A stretch of DNA of 64,000 nt from Thermoclostridium caenicola (lineage in GTDB: Bacteria; Bacillota; Clostridia; DSM-8532), in NCBI RefSeq assembly GCF_900142095.1, contig NZ_FQZP01000005.1:1-64000 (forward strand), given 5' to 3'. A program made the position numbers and the translations under genes. Within the stretch, counting starts at the first letter, position 1. The number at the start of each line of letters is the position of its first letter. The notes under the pieces are model-generated. The model made no database searches. It was not told where the DNA came from and worked only from the letters and a program-made list of their open reading frames with translations. Positions 312-63,273 of the stretch are shown here, one piece after another.

Positions 312-579
312 AAATTATTTGAGCATCGTCCCAGGTCAAGCTCTCGCTCAACCAGGAATGCCTTGTCCTGTTACTCTTTAACCTACTACTCACTTTCGCA
401 AGTAGTTGAATTACTCAAAGCTTCCATAGACGCTTCCGCATCCATGTACTCGCTTAACGGGTTCCTGCATCATTTGCATGATGCTTTCTCATACACTGTT
501 CAATTTTCAATGTCCATGCCGCTCTTTTGCTTGTTCATGCCCCGGAACGCTTTCGCCTTCCAAGGCGCGGCGGAATTTT
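312..579 (-). other. rRNA operon leader
   Basis: This is the transcribed leader between the most proximal promoter and the 16S gene. It holds no credible protein gene. Around 495-515 the reverse strand reads ACATTGAAAATTGAACAGTG, which resembles the boxA-adjacent sequence of Firmicute rRNA leaders (antitermination). Just at the mature 16S end lies a perfect palindrome, CTCAAATAAATTATTTGAG (305-323), and a longer GC-rich inverted repeat lies around 321-360; both may help in processing. Roles are inferred from position. Confidence 0.6.
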
Positions 580-609
580 ATTTTATCACATTCGCCCGGC
601 CTTTGTCAA
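580..609 (-). promoter_or_regulatory. rRNA promoter P4 (nearest the 16S gene)
   Basis: Reverse strand: TTGACA (604-609), 18-nt spacer, TAAAAT (580-585). The bases after the -10 read AAAATTCCGCCG, a start region shared with the three other promoters upstream. Confidence 0.85.
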
Positions 610-698
610 CACCTTTCGACTTTTTTCGAGCTTCCAATTTCTTGATCCGCTCTTGCCGAAACCGTTTATTGACGGGCCTCTCGGGGCGACGGAATCTT

Positions 699-727
699 AG
701 TTTACCATGCCGCGCGGTATTTGTCAA
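699..727 (-). promoter_or_regulatory. rRNA promoter P3
   Basis: Reverse strand: TTGACA (722-727), 17-nt spacer, TAAACT (699-704), then AAGATTCCGTCG. Same orientation and architecture as P1, P2 and P4. Confidence 0.85.
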
Positions 728-851
728 TCTCCTCTTTCTGCCAGATTTCTTTCACCTGCTGAATGCCGGAGGAAGGAATGAAGGCTCGTCGCCTTCACTT
801 CCCATACCGCTATGAGACCTCGGATTTACCGGTCATCATCGGCGGATATTC

Positions 852-881
852 AGTCTAGCATGGCCGGCGCCGTTTTGTCAA
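852..881 (-). promoter_or_regulatory. rRNA promoter P2
   Basis: Reverse strand: TTGACA (876-881), 18-nt spacer, TAGACT (852-857), then GAATATCCGCCG. The element preceding the -35 (AGAGGCGA) resembles that of P3 (AGAGGAGA). Confidence 0.83.
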
Positions 882-997
882 TCGCCTCTTTCTTCCATGC
901 CATCTATCCAAGGAACGCTGCCCGAAGGCCTTATGCCTTCAGCCGCCGGACCTTTTCGAAGCCGCTTTTCAATCAGCCTCATCACCGGCGGAAGTTA

Positions 998-1027
998 AGT
1001 TTAGCACGGATGGGCTTGTCCTGTCAA
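998..1027 (-). promoter_or_regulatory. rRNA promoter P1 (most distal)
   Basis: Reverse strand: TTGACA (1022-1027), 18-nt spacer, TAAACT (998-1003), then TAACTTCCGCCG. It starts right after the trp operon's final hairpin, so the rRNA operon is insulated from trp read-through. Confidence 0.83.
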
Positions 1028-1058
1028 TCTCCTTTTTAATCCATATGCCAGTCCGTGA

Positions 1059-1090
1059 ACAGGGCCCGGAAAACTTCTTCCGGACCCTGT
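1059..1090 (-). terminator. Hairpin at the end of the trp operon
   Basis: A 13-bp inverted repeat (ACAGGGCCCGGAA and its near complement, one mismatch) with a 6-nt loop lies 40 bases after trpA. On the minus strand it is not followed by a U-run, so it may be a weak terminator or a mRNA-stabilising hairpin. Confidence 0.5.
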
Positions 1091-1128
1091 TTGCCTGCCT
1101 TCGTTTTTATATTTATTAATATAGTTAC

Positions 1129-1908
1129 TTAATATATGTCAGAAACAGCATGTTTCATCATGCGCACATATTCCACCACATGGGGGACACAATCCGCGCC
1201 GTACTGTTCGACCATTCTGACGATGGCGCTGCCAACGATAACTCCGTCGGCGAAAGCCGCCATTCTTGAAGCCTGTTCAGGAGTTGAAATACCGAATCCA
1301 ATGGCGCAGGGAACATCCGTCACTTTCCTTATCCGATTCACCATCTCTTCCGCTTCATTGCCGATATGCTCCCGCACACCGGTCACCCCCATGGAGGACA
1401 CACAGTATATGAAGCCCTGTGCTTCCCTGGCGATTGTCTCTATCCTGCTGCCGGAGGTTGGCGATACCAAGGGAACCAGCATGATGCCGTACTTTCTGCA
1501 GAACGGCAGAATCTCCCCTCTTTCCTCAAAAGGCAGATCGGGTATGATCAGCGCGTCCACCCCGGCCTCTTCACAGTTTTCCAGGAACCTGTCATAGCCA
1601 TAGGAAAAAACCGGATTGATATAGGTCATGAAGGCTATAGGCACCTGGCAGGTCTTCCGGATACGCCTGACCATGGCAAAGATGCTGTCGGTCGTAACAC
1701 CGCCTGCTAAAGCCCTGCTGCTAGCGGCCTGGATGACCGGACCCTCGGCCACCGGATCAGAAAAAGGGATGCCCAGCTCGATCAAATCGGCGCCGGCTTC
1801 CGCCATGCCATGCACCAGCCGCTCGGTTGTCTCAATATCCGGATCGCCTGCCGTTATAAAAGGAATAAAAGCTTTGCCGTTTTTAAAGACCTGCTCCATC
1901 CTATTCAT
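1129..1908 (-). CDS. trpA: Tryptophan synthase alpha chain
   Basis: Cleaves indole-3-glycerol phosphate to indole and glyceraldehyde 3-phosphate, and passes indole to TrpB through the alpha2-beta2 tunnel. The 259-residue protein has the usual length for the family. It shows the ELGIPFSDP block with the catalytic Glu and the second catalytic acid region ([10 protein letters not shown]), [15 protein letters not shown] and the phosphate-binding GFGIS/GSAIV segments near the C-terminus. The ATG lies inside the end of trpB, an 8-base overlap that implies translational coupling. It is the last gene of the trp operon and is followed by a hairpin. Confidence 0.97.
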
Positions 1909-3091
1909 GGATATCCACCCCTCTGTAACGGGCTATGGAAGCCACATCCTTATCGCCCCTGCCGGAGAGGCCGACGACTATGATCTGGTCCTGCCTCATC
2001 TGAGGCGCACGCTTCATGGCATAGGCAACCGCATGGGCGCTTTCAATGGCCGGAATAATGCCCTCCGTACGAGACAGGTATTCGAAGGCTTCTACGGCCT
2101 CCTCATCGGTGATCGGAACATATTCCGCCCTTCCTCTATCGCGCAGGTAGGCATGCTCCGGCCCAACACCCGGATAATCAAGTCCGGCAGAGATGGAATG
2201 GACCGGCGCTATCTGGCCGTATGCATCCTGGCAGAAATACGACTTCATACCATGGAAAATGCCGACTTTGCCCAAGGTCATGGTTGCCGCGTGCTTATCG
2301 GTATGGATGCCATGGCCGGCAGCCTCGCAGCCGATGAGGGCTACGTCCCGATCGTTGATGAATTCGTGGAAGAGCCCTATGGCATTGCTGCCGCCGCCTA
2401 CACAGGCCACCAGGACGTCCGGAAGCCTCCCTTCCCTTTCCAGAATCTGCTGCCTGACTTCCCGGCCGATCACGCTCTGGAAATCCCGCACGATGGTCGG
2501 AAACGGGTGCGGACCCATGACCGATCCCAGGACATAATGGGTATCGGCAACGCGCCTGCTCCATTCCCGCAGGGTCTCATTCACCGCATCCTTCAGGGTC
2601 TGGGTACCGCTGGTCACCTCATGGACCTTTGCCCCCAGGAGCTTCATGCGATAAACATTGAGGGCCTGACGCCTTGTATCTTCCTTTCCCATGAAGATCT
2701 CGCATTCAAGGCCTAAAAGTGCGGCCGCAGTCGCAGTGGCAACCCCGTGCTGCCCGGCTCCCGTTTCGGCGATGACGCGGGTTTTGCCCATCCGCTTTGC
2801 CAGGAGCACCTGTCCCAGCACATTGTTGATCTTGTGGGAGCCTGTGTGGTTGAGATCTTCCCTCTTGAGGTAAATTTTCGCCCCACCCAGATCCCTGGTC
2901 ATCTTTTCCGCGTAATAGAGCAGCGAAGGCCTGCCCGCATATTCCTGAAGCAACCTGTTCAGCTCGCTTTTGAAATCCGGATCATCCTTTAGCCGTTCAT
3001 AGGCTTCTTCCAGCTCGATAACAGCATTCATCAGCGTTTCCGGAATGTATTGACCGCCGTAGTCGCCAAACCTTCCTTTTGACATGAACAT
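1901..3091 (-). CDS. trpB: Tryptophan synthase beta chain
   Basis: PLP enzyme that condenses indole with L-serine to give tryptophan. The 396-residue length is normal for a TrpB1-type subunit. It contains the PLP lysine motif [14 protein letters not shown], the active-site ETGAGQHG segment, the phosphate-binding glycine-rich loop CVGGGSNA and the C-terminal SGRGDKD. The start chosen has AGGAG four bases upstream. A 105-base gap separates it from trpF, with no promoter or terminator I can recognise, and it overlaps trpA downstream. Confidence 0.97.
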
Positions 3092-7846: not shown

Positions 7847-8206
7847 AAAAAAGCCTTTGTCCCGTCTTCGGGACAAAAGCTTTTGCTTCTGCGGTGCCAC
7901 CCCAATTGGCGCATGCATGCGCCCACTCATTGCCTGCATACCATCATATGCATCCTGCTGATAACGGGCCGGCTCCCCGTAAGCGCCTACTCTCCATGGG
8001 ATTTCGGGCTTCCCTCACAAGTCCATTCGAAATAACCTTGCAGCCGCATTCCCACCAGCCAGCGGCTCTCTGGGTACAAGTCGTTATTCCTACTCCTCTT
8101 GCTCAACGGTTTATGGCAATCATTCAGTTTTCATCAGCTTGTGTTACATCACCTGGAAACAAAGTTATAACCAACCAGTAATGTAGCCGTCTGAGCTGTG
8201 AATTTG
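7847..8206 (-). promoter_or_regulatory. Tryptophan-specific T-box leader with terminator
   Basis: The reverse strand has the T-box hallmark GGGTGGCACCGC (7891-7902), the AGAGAGC element of stem I (about 8064-8071) and a specifier loop reading GAATGGAC, giving the codon UGG (8023-8025), i.e. tRNA-Trp. A strong terminator follows: AAGCTTTTGTCCCG pairs with CGGGACAAAGGCTT, then a U6 run (about 7847-7884). Known mechanism: uncharged tRNA-Trp stabilises the antiterminator and allows transcription of trpEGDCFBA. Confidence 0.93.
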
Positions 8207-8212
8207 TGGTTA

Positions 8213-8241
8213 ATTTTAGCATGGTTTTTCCATCTTGTCAA
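8213..8241 (-). promoter_or_regulatory. Promoter of the trp operon
   Basis: Reverse strand: TTGACA (8236-8241), 17-nt spacer, TAAAAT (8213-8218), a near-consensus sigma-A promoter that starts transcription just before the T-box. Confidence 0.88.
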
Positions 8242-60593: not shown

Positions 60594-60622
60594 ACAAAAA
60601 CAGCCGGATTGCTTCCGGCTAA
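60594..60622 (-). terminator. Terminator at the end of the GTPase-NYN gene
   Basis: TAGCCGGA and TCCGGCTG pair and are followed by TTTTTGTTT; the stem begins at the stop codon. Confidence 0.8.
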
Positions 60623-63273
60623 CCATTCCGTTCTTCTTCCCTGAGCAAAGCTTCCATGCGTTCTTTGGTCTCCCGGGACAGCTTGTCCCTCAGATAGTTT
60701 CTGTCCATGGCCTGCTTTTCCCGGTAGGCCTGGAGGACGCCTTCGTTGGTTCTTTGCAGTTCCTTCCTGAGATCGTCGGCCGACCATACGGCACAGCCCG
60801 CCCCCCGGATGATAACCTGTTGCAGGTTATCCGATGTGGCTACGGTGATATCATATCGCTTCTGGTTATCGTGGGCAAACTTTTCGATATAATGGTCCGC
60901 CGTCTGGGCTTCGCGGGTATACACCACATGGATGTTATGGTAATCCAGGATCTCCTCCTGGTGCCCTTGCACCCGGTAAGCGTCAAAAACGGCAATGATC
61001 CGGCAGTTTCGTAACCCCCTGTACTTGCACAGTTCATCCAAAAGCCTGGTCCTTGCGGCATCGATATTGTCTTCCGCCAGTTCCCTGAGCTCAGGCCAGG
61101 CAAAGATGATGTTATAGCCATCCACGAGGAGATATTCTTCCTTTGCCTCCCGTGGCTTGCCCACATAGGGAGCGGGCTTGCCAGGACTTCCCGAAGCGGT
61201 TTTGGGTTTGTGCCAGACCGTCTTTTTACCCTGATTGGCAAAGTAAGTCCGCTGGAGGATCCTGTCAACCTCCTCCGGATCAAGCCATTCTTCCCTGTCT
61301 TTCTCCGACCGCTCCCTGTCTGGATTCTCCATTAAGTCCCTGTCGGGTTTCAGGCAGCTTTCAACATGCATATAGTTCTTGACTTGATCCCAACTGACAA
61401 GAAAACCGGTACCGTTGGCACAGAAAACTGAACCCGTGGGGTTGTCCGCGTCCCTTTCGGAATCATACCCTATCGCCCGGATGATTTCGTCTGCATTATG
61501 GCACGGACCGTATCCGGCAAGATGGCACATGAGCCGGCCATGACCCCTGGTATAGGCAGCCACATCCTTCTGATAGTTTCTCATGGTGCTGACCGGGGCT
61601 TTTCCTTCCAGCACCGCTACACCATCCTGAATGCGGGCAATCCGGCATGTACCGTGCATCTTTTCAATATCGGACATGGCACGGCCCACCATCTTCTCGG
61701 GAAGTTCCAGCTGAAAGGCGTAATAGGGTTCCAGCAGCACCGATTCGGCTTCCTTAAGCCCCTGGCGCACCGCGCGCCATGTGGCTTCCCGGAAGTCGCC
61801 GCCCTGCGTATGCTTGGGATGGGCCCGGCCGGAAACCAGGGTGATCTTCATATCGGTGATGGGCGAACCGGTGAGAACGCCCCTGTGCTCCTTCTCCTTC
61901 AGATGGGATAGGATGAGGTTCTTCCAGTTCCTCGCCAGCACATCATCGCTGCAGTCCACCGCATATTTCAGGCCGCTTCCCGGCTCCCCCGGCTCCAGCA
62001 GCAGGTGAACCTCGGCATAATGCCGCAGCGGCTCAAAATGGCCAACGCCTTCCACGGTATTGGCAATGGTCTCTTTATACAGAATCCGTCCGGCATCAAA
62101 GGTCACTTCCTGGCCAAACCGGTTCTGGATAAGACTTTTCAGGATCTCAAGCTGAACCTCGCCCATGACCTGGACCCGGATCTCCTCCAACTGTTCGTCC
62201 CAGACGATATGCAGCTCCGGATCCTCTTCCTCCAGCTGGCGCAGTTTGGGCAGCAGGACTTTGGGATCGCAGCCTTCCGGAGGCAGGATCTGATAGGTCA
62301 GAACGGGTTCCAGCACAGGCCTTCCGGAGGCTTCTTCCCCGCCAAGGCCATCGCCGGGTTTTGTGCGCGTAAGCCCGGTAACGGCGCATACGGCACCGGC
62401 TTCCGCCTCGCTCACCGCCTGGTATTTCGCCCCGGAATAGAGCCTTATCTGGTTTACTTTTTCCTCCCAGACACCGTTGCTTATAACATCCCGTGCCCGA
62501 AGCTTTCCGCCGGTGATCTTCATGTGGGTGAGTCGGTTTCCCTGTTCATCGCGGCTGATCTTGAATACCTTGGCACGGAAATCCCGTGGATAGACCGGAA
62601 CTTCCGCATACTTCACCAGCGCCCGCATAAAGGCCTCCACCCCCTCCAGTTTCAGGGCTGAGCCAAAAAAGCAGGGAAACAGTTTCCGGTCCCGGATGGC
62701 CTTTTTTATCTGCTGTGTTTTGAACTGGCCGGTTTTGAGATAAGCATCCATCATGCCTTCATCGCAAAGGGCCAGTTGCTCACAGAAGCTCGTCGTACCG
62801 GTCTGTCCGAAATCAACACAGCCTTCGCTGAGCTGTCTTTTCAGGGCATGGAGCAGTTCACTCCTGTCGGTACCTTCCTGATCCATTTTGTTGATGAAGA
62901 TGAAAGCGGGTATCCCGTAAAGTTCCAGCAAGCGCCACAGGGTTTTGGTATGCCCCTGCACACCGTCTGCCCCGCTCACCACCAGGATGGCGTAATCCAG
63001 CACCTGGAGCGTTCTTTCCATTTCCGCTGAAAAGTCCACATGCCCCGGGGTATCCAGAAGGGTAATCTGCGTGCCGTCCACTTCGAATATGGCCTGCTTG
63101 GAGAAAATGGTGATCCCCCGCGCACGTTCCAGTTCAAAATTATCCAGAAAAGCATCCTTTTTATCCACTCTGCCCAGTTTCCGGATCCTGCCGCTTAAAT
63201 AAAGCAAGCCCTCCGAGAGGGTCGTTTTGCCGGCGTCCACATGGGCCAGTATGCCAATAACCAGTTTGTTCAT
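60619..63273 (-). CDS. TetM-like ribosome-associated GTPase fused to a Rae1/YacP-type NYN domain
   Basis: 884 residues. Part 1 (1 to about 640) is an EF-G-like factor of the tetracycline ribosomal-protection group: G1 AHVDAGKT, G3 DTPGH, G4 NKMD, domains II-V, with EGKAPVSTMRNYQKDVAAYTRGHG near the end. Then comes a bridge with ANGTGFLVSWDQVKNYM and a charged linker (about 645-710). Part 2 (712-884) matches the NYN fold of Rae1: LLVDGYN, VFDAY, TADHYIE, ATSD, i.e. the acidic active-site set. Rae1 is known to cut mRNA in the ribosomal A site. A joint action at stalled ribosomes is my inference; tetracycline resistance is not shown. Confidence 0.9.
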   Translation of the reverse strand: MNKLVIGILAHVDAGKTTLSEGLLYLSGRIRKLGRVDKKDAFLDNFELERARGITIFSKQAIFEVDGTQITLLDTPGHVDFSAEMERTLQVLDYAILVVSGADGVQGHTKTLWRLLELYGIPAFIFINKMDQEGTDRSELLHALKRQLSEGCVDFGQTGTTSFCEQLALCDEGMMDAYLKTGQFKTQQIKKAIRDRKLFPCFFGSALKLEGVEAFMRALVKYAEVPVYPRDFRAKVFKISRDEQGNRLTHMKITGGKLRARDVISNGVWEEKVNQIRLYSGAKYQAVSEAEAGAVCAVTGLTRTKPGDGLGGEEASGRPVLEPVLTYQILPPEGCDPKVLLPKLRQLEEEDPELHIVWDEQLEEIRVQVMGEVQLEILKSLIQNRFGQEVTFDAGRILYKETIANTVEGVGHFEPLRHYAEVHLLLEPGEPGSGLKYAVDCSDDVLARNWKNLILSHLKEKEHRGVLTGSPITDMKITLVSGRAHPKHTQGGDFREATWRAVRQGLKEAESVLLEPYYAFQLELPEKMVGRAMSDIEKMHGTCRIARIQDGVAVLEGKAPVSTMRNYQKDVAAYTRGHGRLMCHLAGYGPCHNADEIIRAIGYDSERDADNPTGSVFCANGTGFLVSWDQVKNYMHVESCLKPDRDLMENPDRERSEKDREEWLDPEEVDRILQRTYFANQGKKTVWHKPKTASGSPGKPAPYVGKPREAKEEYLLVDGYNIIFAWPELRELAEDNIDAARTRLLDELCKYRGLRNCRIIAVFDAYRVQGHQEEILDYHNIHVVYTREAQTADHYIEKFAHDNQKRYDITVATSDNLQQVIIRGAGCAVWSADDLRKELQRTNEGVLQAYREKQAMDRNYLRDKLSRETKERMEALLREEERNG

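Follow-up and report, generated by a model that had tools for sequence, protein, structure and literature searches.

We propose that an rRNA operon of Thermoclostridium caenicola is fed by four independent sigma-A promoters in tandem, each probably started with GTP; we consider this reading, which is drawn from the sequence, likely to be correct. The operon lies on the minus strand at one end of the analysed DNA (the whole stretch of 64,000 nucleotides, called the window below), with the 5′ end of its 16S gene near position 313 (Rfam SSU match 1-313).

The four promoters and their surroundings

The features of the locus, in the direction of transcription, are as follows.

1129..1908, minus strand: trpA (NCBIfam TIGR00262, above cut-off), in the same direction as the rRNA operon
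1058..1091, minus strand: strong hairpin in the trpA-P1 interval, from folding; without a T run and absent from the terminator-scan list
986..1027, minus strand: promoter unit P1, TTGACA-18-TAAACT; -35/-10 pair 1027-998 (TTGACA 1027-1022; TGc TAAACT ending at 998); start region TAACTTCCGCCG; first G, the putative start, at 989
882..985, minus strand: spacer 1 (P1-P2), with a GAAGGC-GCCTTC hairpin at about 924-940, without a T run; weakly like spacer 1 of the congeners
840..881, minus strand: promoter unit P2, TTGACA-18-TAGACT; -35/-10 pair 881-852 (TTGACA 881-876; TGc TAGACT ending at 852); start region GAATATCCGCCG; first G, the putative start, at 843
728..839, minus strand: spacer 2 (P2-P3), matching spacer 1 of G001 and G002; it holds a GAAGGC-GCCTTC hairpin at about 780-796
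687..727, minus strand: promoter unit P3, TTGACA-17-TAAACT; -35/-10 pair 727-699 (TTGACA 727-722; TGg TAAACT ending at 699); start region AAGATTCCGTCG; first G, the putative start, at 690
610..686, minus strand: spacer 3 (P3-P4); matches spacer 2 of G001, G002 and G003
568..609, minus strand: promoter unit P4, TTGACA-18-TAAAAT; -35/-10 pair 609-580 (TTGACA 609-604; TGa TAAAAT ending at 580); start region AAAATTCCGCCG; first G, the putative start, at 571
433..527, minus strand: leader block, 95 bases identical to the leader of the second rRNA operon (contig C54)
1..313, minus strand: 5′ part of the 16S rRNA gene (Rfam RF00177), truncated by the window edge, which is the contig start

Taking a tandem array to be at least two same-direction sigma-A-type promoters upstream of 16S, the locus holds four. 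Each has a perfect TTGACA, a 17- or 18-base spacer and a TG-extended -10 that is slightly weak, and the -35 to -35 distances from P1 through to P4 are 146, 154 and 118 bases. An earlier note on this DNA had placed four -35/-10 pairs at these positions, leaving the strand unstated, and had described a related start sequence after each; the pairs lie there, on the minus strand, and WTCCGYCG stands four bases after the -10 in all four. NNNNWTCCGYCG follows each of the four TTGACA-17/18-TGnTANAMT promoters upstream of 16S. The pattern TTGACA-N16-19-TANANT occurs seven times in the 64 kb window (0.32 expected), four of the seven being P1-P4, and the full motif including the start sequence occurs four times, with none in 100 dinucleotide shuffles. 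In the wider genome, TTGACA-N14/15-TGnTANNNT has 39 sites, of which five are followed by WTCCGNCG: P1-P4, and the one promoter of the third rRNA locus (contig C18). The note's assignment of the pairs to the rRNA operon, as sigma-A-type promoters, is supported.

In the working that we envisage, each promoter would load RNA polymerase independently and its transcripts would read through to 16S; independent loading is suggested by the intervals of 118-154 bases, which lie within the range seen across the class. Transcription would start at the G nine bases after the -10 (alternatives are C7 or C8), and GTP would be both the initiating and the regulating nucleotide, as reviewed for rRNA promoters of Firmicutes (PMC9304144). 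With four loading sites 118-154 bases apart, the operon could take in more polymerases whenever the cell has the means. More units might raise output, as would agree with B. subtilis rrnE (see below); a higher rRNA output from four promoters is plausible.

The scan for terminator-like sites on the minus strand gave none between P1 and 16S. We considered the GAAGGC-GCCTTC hairpins of spacers 1 and 2 as inter-promoter terminators or attenuators and rejected them, as the T run is missing. An UP-element is likewise not claimed: the A content of the 25 bases before the -35 exceeds the window average and is only mildly unusual (the fractions of random places with an equally high content are 0.05, 0.10, 0.009 and 0.05 for the four promoters).

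An ORF at 1901-3091, which from its position we take to be trpB, precedes trpA in the same direction. Further upstream, before trpE and the trp genes that end beside the rRNA operon, is a T-box leader at 7866-8115 on the minus strand (Rfam RF00230); a promoter, TTGACA-17-TGcTAAAAT, stands before this leader at 8213-8241, also on the minus strand.

Two types of start region

The start motif is widespread: scanning the genome collection for the exact pattern found 45 stretches across many clostridial groups, most with a second promoter near by, and rRNA promoters in many clostridial families carry it. Among 110 TG promoters from the class, outside the family of this genome, 64% have G and 21% have C as base 7 after the -10; information reaches to about base 12. 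The first G, counted from base 5, falls at bases 7-10 in 98 of the 110, against about 42 by composition, which fits initiation with GTP as the review of Firmicutes describes it (PMC9304144). Sorted by base 7 and its neighbours, 79 of these promoters have a purine start, 18 are WTCC-like and 13 are other. Clostridial rRNA promoters are of two start types: those with G at base 7 (AAG), and those with WTCCG, in which the first G is at base 9. P1-P4 all belong to the WTCCG type, the rarer one, with C at base 7 and the first G at base 9; in the C54 operon one of the two strict promoters has its first G at base 9 and the other at base 7.

An AAG-type promoter adjoins the leader in most operons of the family, typically paired with a WTCC type. 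This leader-adjacent AAG type is absent from the window, from G001 C165, G002 C151, G003 C12, G022 C50 and G028 C9, and from the three operons of G012; the trp-linked operon has WTCC types only, in the window and in G001, G002 and G003.

This distribution bears on whether the promoters are simply additive. The WTCCG type (initiating at C7, C8 or G9) could answer to a different nucleotide or growth state from the AAG type (G7), and the window operon, built only of the WTCCG type, could then be a specialised one; taken together, we regard these two ideas as rather unlikely. The recurrence of both start types across the class speaks for them, as does the pairing of WTCC with a leader-proximal AAG in most family operons while the trp-linked operon has WTCC only; but the pattern is not exclusive to that operon, for G012, G022 C50 and G028 C9 also have a leader-adjacent WTCC type. 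Put more generally, two conserved promoter classes, differing in the position of the RNA start and perhaps in the nucleotide used for it, might run the rRNA operons of clostridia. The trp-linked operon of this genus, having the second class only (four times over in the window), would then answer to a different signal, a nucleotide pool or growth state, from that of its sister operons; this is a tentative suggestion, to which we give a low probability. Independent, probably GTP-started promoters are the reading that we prefer. The two start types across the class seem to us a more interesting lead than the promoter count, and our search of the literature, made among open-licence papers, found no description of them.

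Folding gave no role specific to the WTCCG type. A 5′-terminal hairpin was considered as the role of CCGCCG and set aside, both start types being mildly structured across the family (mean z -1.96 for 36 AAG-type units and -1.14 for 35 WTCC-type units); in the fold of P1 the start region pairs with a downstream CCGGCGG.

Promoter number in the class, the genome and other bacteria

The earlier note had called two tandem promoters common and four noteworthy. For the class, a sample was chosen by 16S only: 243 genomes were searched and 127 had a match, and 107 loci (earlier ones included) came down to 84 distinct regions in which a 16S start was recognised and 500 or more bases lay upstream, these being part of the matched places and not fully independent regions. 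A strict promoter was one with at least 5/6 matches in the -35, at least 4/6 in the -10 and a sum, with TG, of at least 11, so defined that the counts are lower bounds. Three regions had no strict promoter, 38 had one, 34 had two, eight had three and one, the window, had four, so that 43 of 84 had two or more; the shuffle control gave 0.03 per region. Neighbouring promoters in the class are mostly 61 to 160 bases apart (50 of 53 intervals), and the window's intervals of 118-154 fall inside this range.

The family scan agrees. The leader anchor was found in 31 of the 32 loci given, and these 31 operons have two promoters in 16 cases, three in 13 and four in two, so that the array is shared with relatives in which each operon has between two and four. 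The family's other operon with four is in G012, where one of the sites has neither TG nor the start motif. Tandem promoters are the rule in class and family and four good ones are the upper end, the maximum among the samples that we scanned; the window array is a well-formed new example at the high end of an ordinary, known arrangement.

Within the genome itself the other rRNA operons have fewer promoters, which was one of the comparisons that the note had asked for. The second operon (C54) has two strict promoters and a weaker third (TTGACT, without TG) that went uncounted in the family scan. The third locus (L097, G000:C18:39600-40832) has a single WTCCG-type promoter, beyond which the sequence is unrelated as far as the contig end; the locus is orthologous to rRNA loci of G001, G002, G003 and G004, with 78-80% identity over 557-917 bases. 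After that promoter we had the impression, and no more than this, of short repeated motifs resembling the end of an insertion element.

Comparable arrays, of two to five tandem rRNA promoters, are on record in other bacteria. Some Streptomyces rRNA operons may have four promoters. The tandem promoters of mycobacterial rrnA vary in number by species, with two in M. tuberculosis and five in M. chelonae (PMC10218544). The likeness lies in several tandem promoters before one rRNA operon, in a species-variable number; the mycobacterial case differs in that it belongs to another phylum and that its promoters were mapped by 5′-RACE, whereas those of the window are read from the letters alone. Nearer to hand, B. 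subtilis rrnE is described as having three sigma-A elements and as the strongest rRNA operon, the others having two (PMC3405057). There too a sigma-A tandem array stands in a Firmicute, with more elements in the strongest operon, although it has two or three elements against four in the window, and belongs to a different class.

E. coli rrnB P1, as described, starts nine bases after the -10 and has a G+C-rich discriminator (PMC7822876). In the window's promoters, too, the first G stands nine bases after the -10, directly behind CC, and is the predicted start; in contrast to rrnB P1, their first bases after the -10 are A/T-rich. We considered membership of a scrunched, rrnB P1-like kind and rejected it, the first four bases after the -10 being TAAC, GAAT, AAGA and AAAA. 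E. coli rrnB P1 is a comparison and not a class to which the window's promoters belong, the distance to the first G being the sole likeness.

Orthologous arrays and the history of the units

Two congeners, G001 and G002, have the orthologous locus downstream of trpA (trpA found by tblastn), with three promoters each. Since the spacers are free of promoter core, they are a better record of history than the core is. In the window, spacer 2 corresponds to spacer 1 of G001 and G002 (z 13.2 and 9.8), spacer 3 matches spacer 2 of G001, G002 and G003 (z 16.2, 13.6 and 10.4), and the leader after P4 matches the last stretches of the same three (z 14.6, 11.5 and 12.3); spacer 1 is weakly like spacer 1 of G001 and G002 (z 3.4 and 3.2), and the first spacer of G003 has no match among the window spacers. 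P3 is thus the counterpart of unit 2 of G001 and G002, and P4 that of unit 3 of G001, G002 and G003. These matches indicate that the window exceeds G001 and G002 by one unit, near P1/P2. They also replace an idea that we had entertained, in which the middle promoter of G001 and G002 was a P2/P3 hybrid: unit 2 matches P3, and spacer 1 matches window spacer 2.

The earlier note saw in the array repeated duplications of one promoter unit, a reading to which the single extra unit gives partial support. The likeness of the start sequences does not help it: the same motif is found class-wide at rRNA promoters, so local duplication cannot be argued from a shared core and start sequence. Alignment of the four units, which the note had proposed, gives a divided answer. 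Over the 60 nt before the -35, P1 resembles P2 (z 3.5) and P2 resembles P3 (z 3.2), but upstream likeness is unclear for P4 (z 0.5, 1.8 and 0.3 against P1, P2 and P3) and there is no clear likeness downstream of the start regions (all z at most 2.4). In a one-protein tree the other four genomes of the genus group to the exclusion of the window's genome (support 96/93), which makes gain here and loss in the relatives equally simple on that one gene. The one-unit difference probably arose by duplication or loss between neighbouring units.

Conservation of the further promoters, whose lack was part of what the note would have counted against its reading, was found for three of the four: counterparts were assigned in G001 and G002 for P1, P3 and P4, and none for P2. 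Core letters are kept at 52 of 54 places in each of the two congeners, against 227 of 363 (G001) and 236 of 363 (G002) in the flanks (core vs flank p < 1e-6), a test that is somewhat circular in that most of the relatives' units were located by their core.

These arrays are also where we can weigh the proposal that only the leader-proximal promoter, or two, matters, those upstream being relics of past duplications that have yet to decay. The place orthologous to P3 in G003 (L038, G003:C12, about 774-810) holds a decayed middle unit (TTGGCA, CAAACA), which means that units can be dispensable, and the 38 class regions with a single strict promoter point the same way. All four promoters of the window, however, keep the perfect -35, the TG and the start motif, and the counterparts of P1, P3 and P4 have been kept in two congeners while the flanks diverged; we regard relics as an unlikely explanation. 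It is highly improbable that false joining of repeated rRNA flanks multiplied a promoter in assembly: the window does begin at a contig end within a repeated 16S gene, but the three spacers all differ in sequence, and two other assemblies likewise show trpA followed by promoters and leader.

Four working promoters remain our preferred reading. The orthologous arrays, with three units, with four and in one case with a unit that has decayed, form a natural series from which one could learn how the number of promoters evolves and whether rRNA output depends on it.

At the other end of the window, 60619-63273 on the minus strand encodes a GTPase of 884 aa that resembles ribosomal-protection proteins and EF-G; it falls below all NCBIfam full-protein cut-offs shown for these names and has about 290 residues beyond the matched part. 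Among 13 relatives searched, seven have an ortholog at 69-80%, and G033, at 43%, brings the number to eight.
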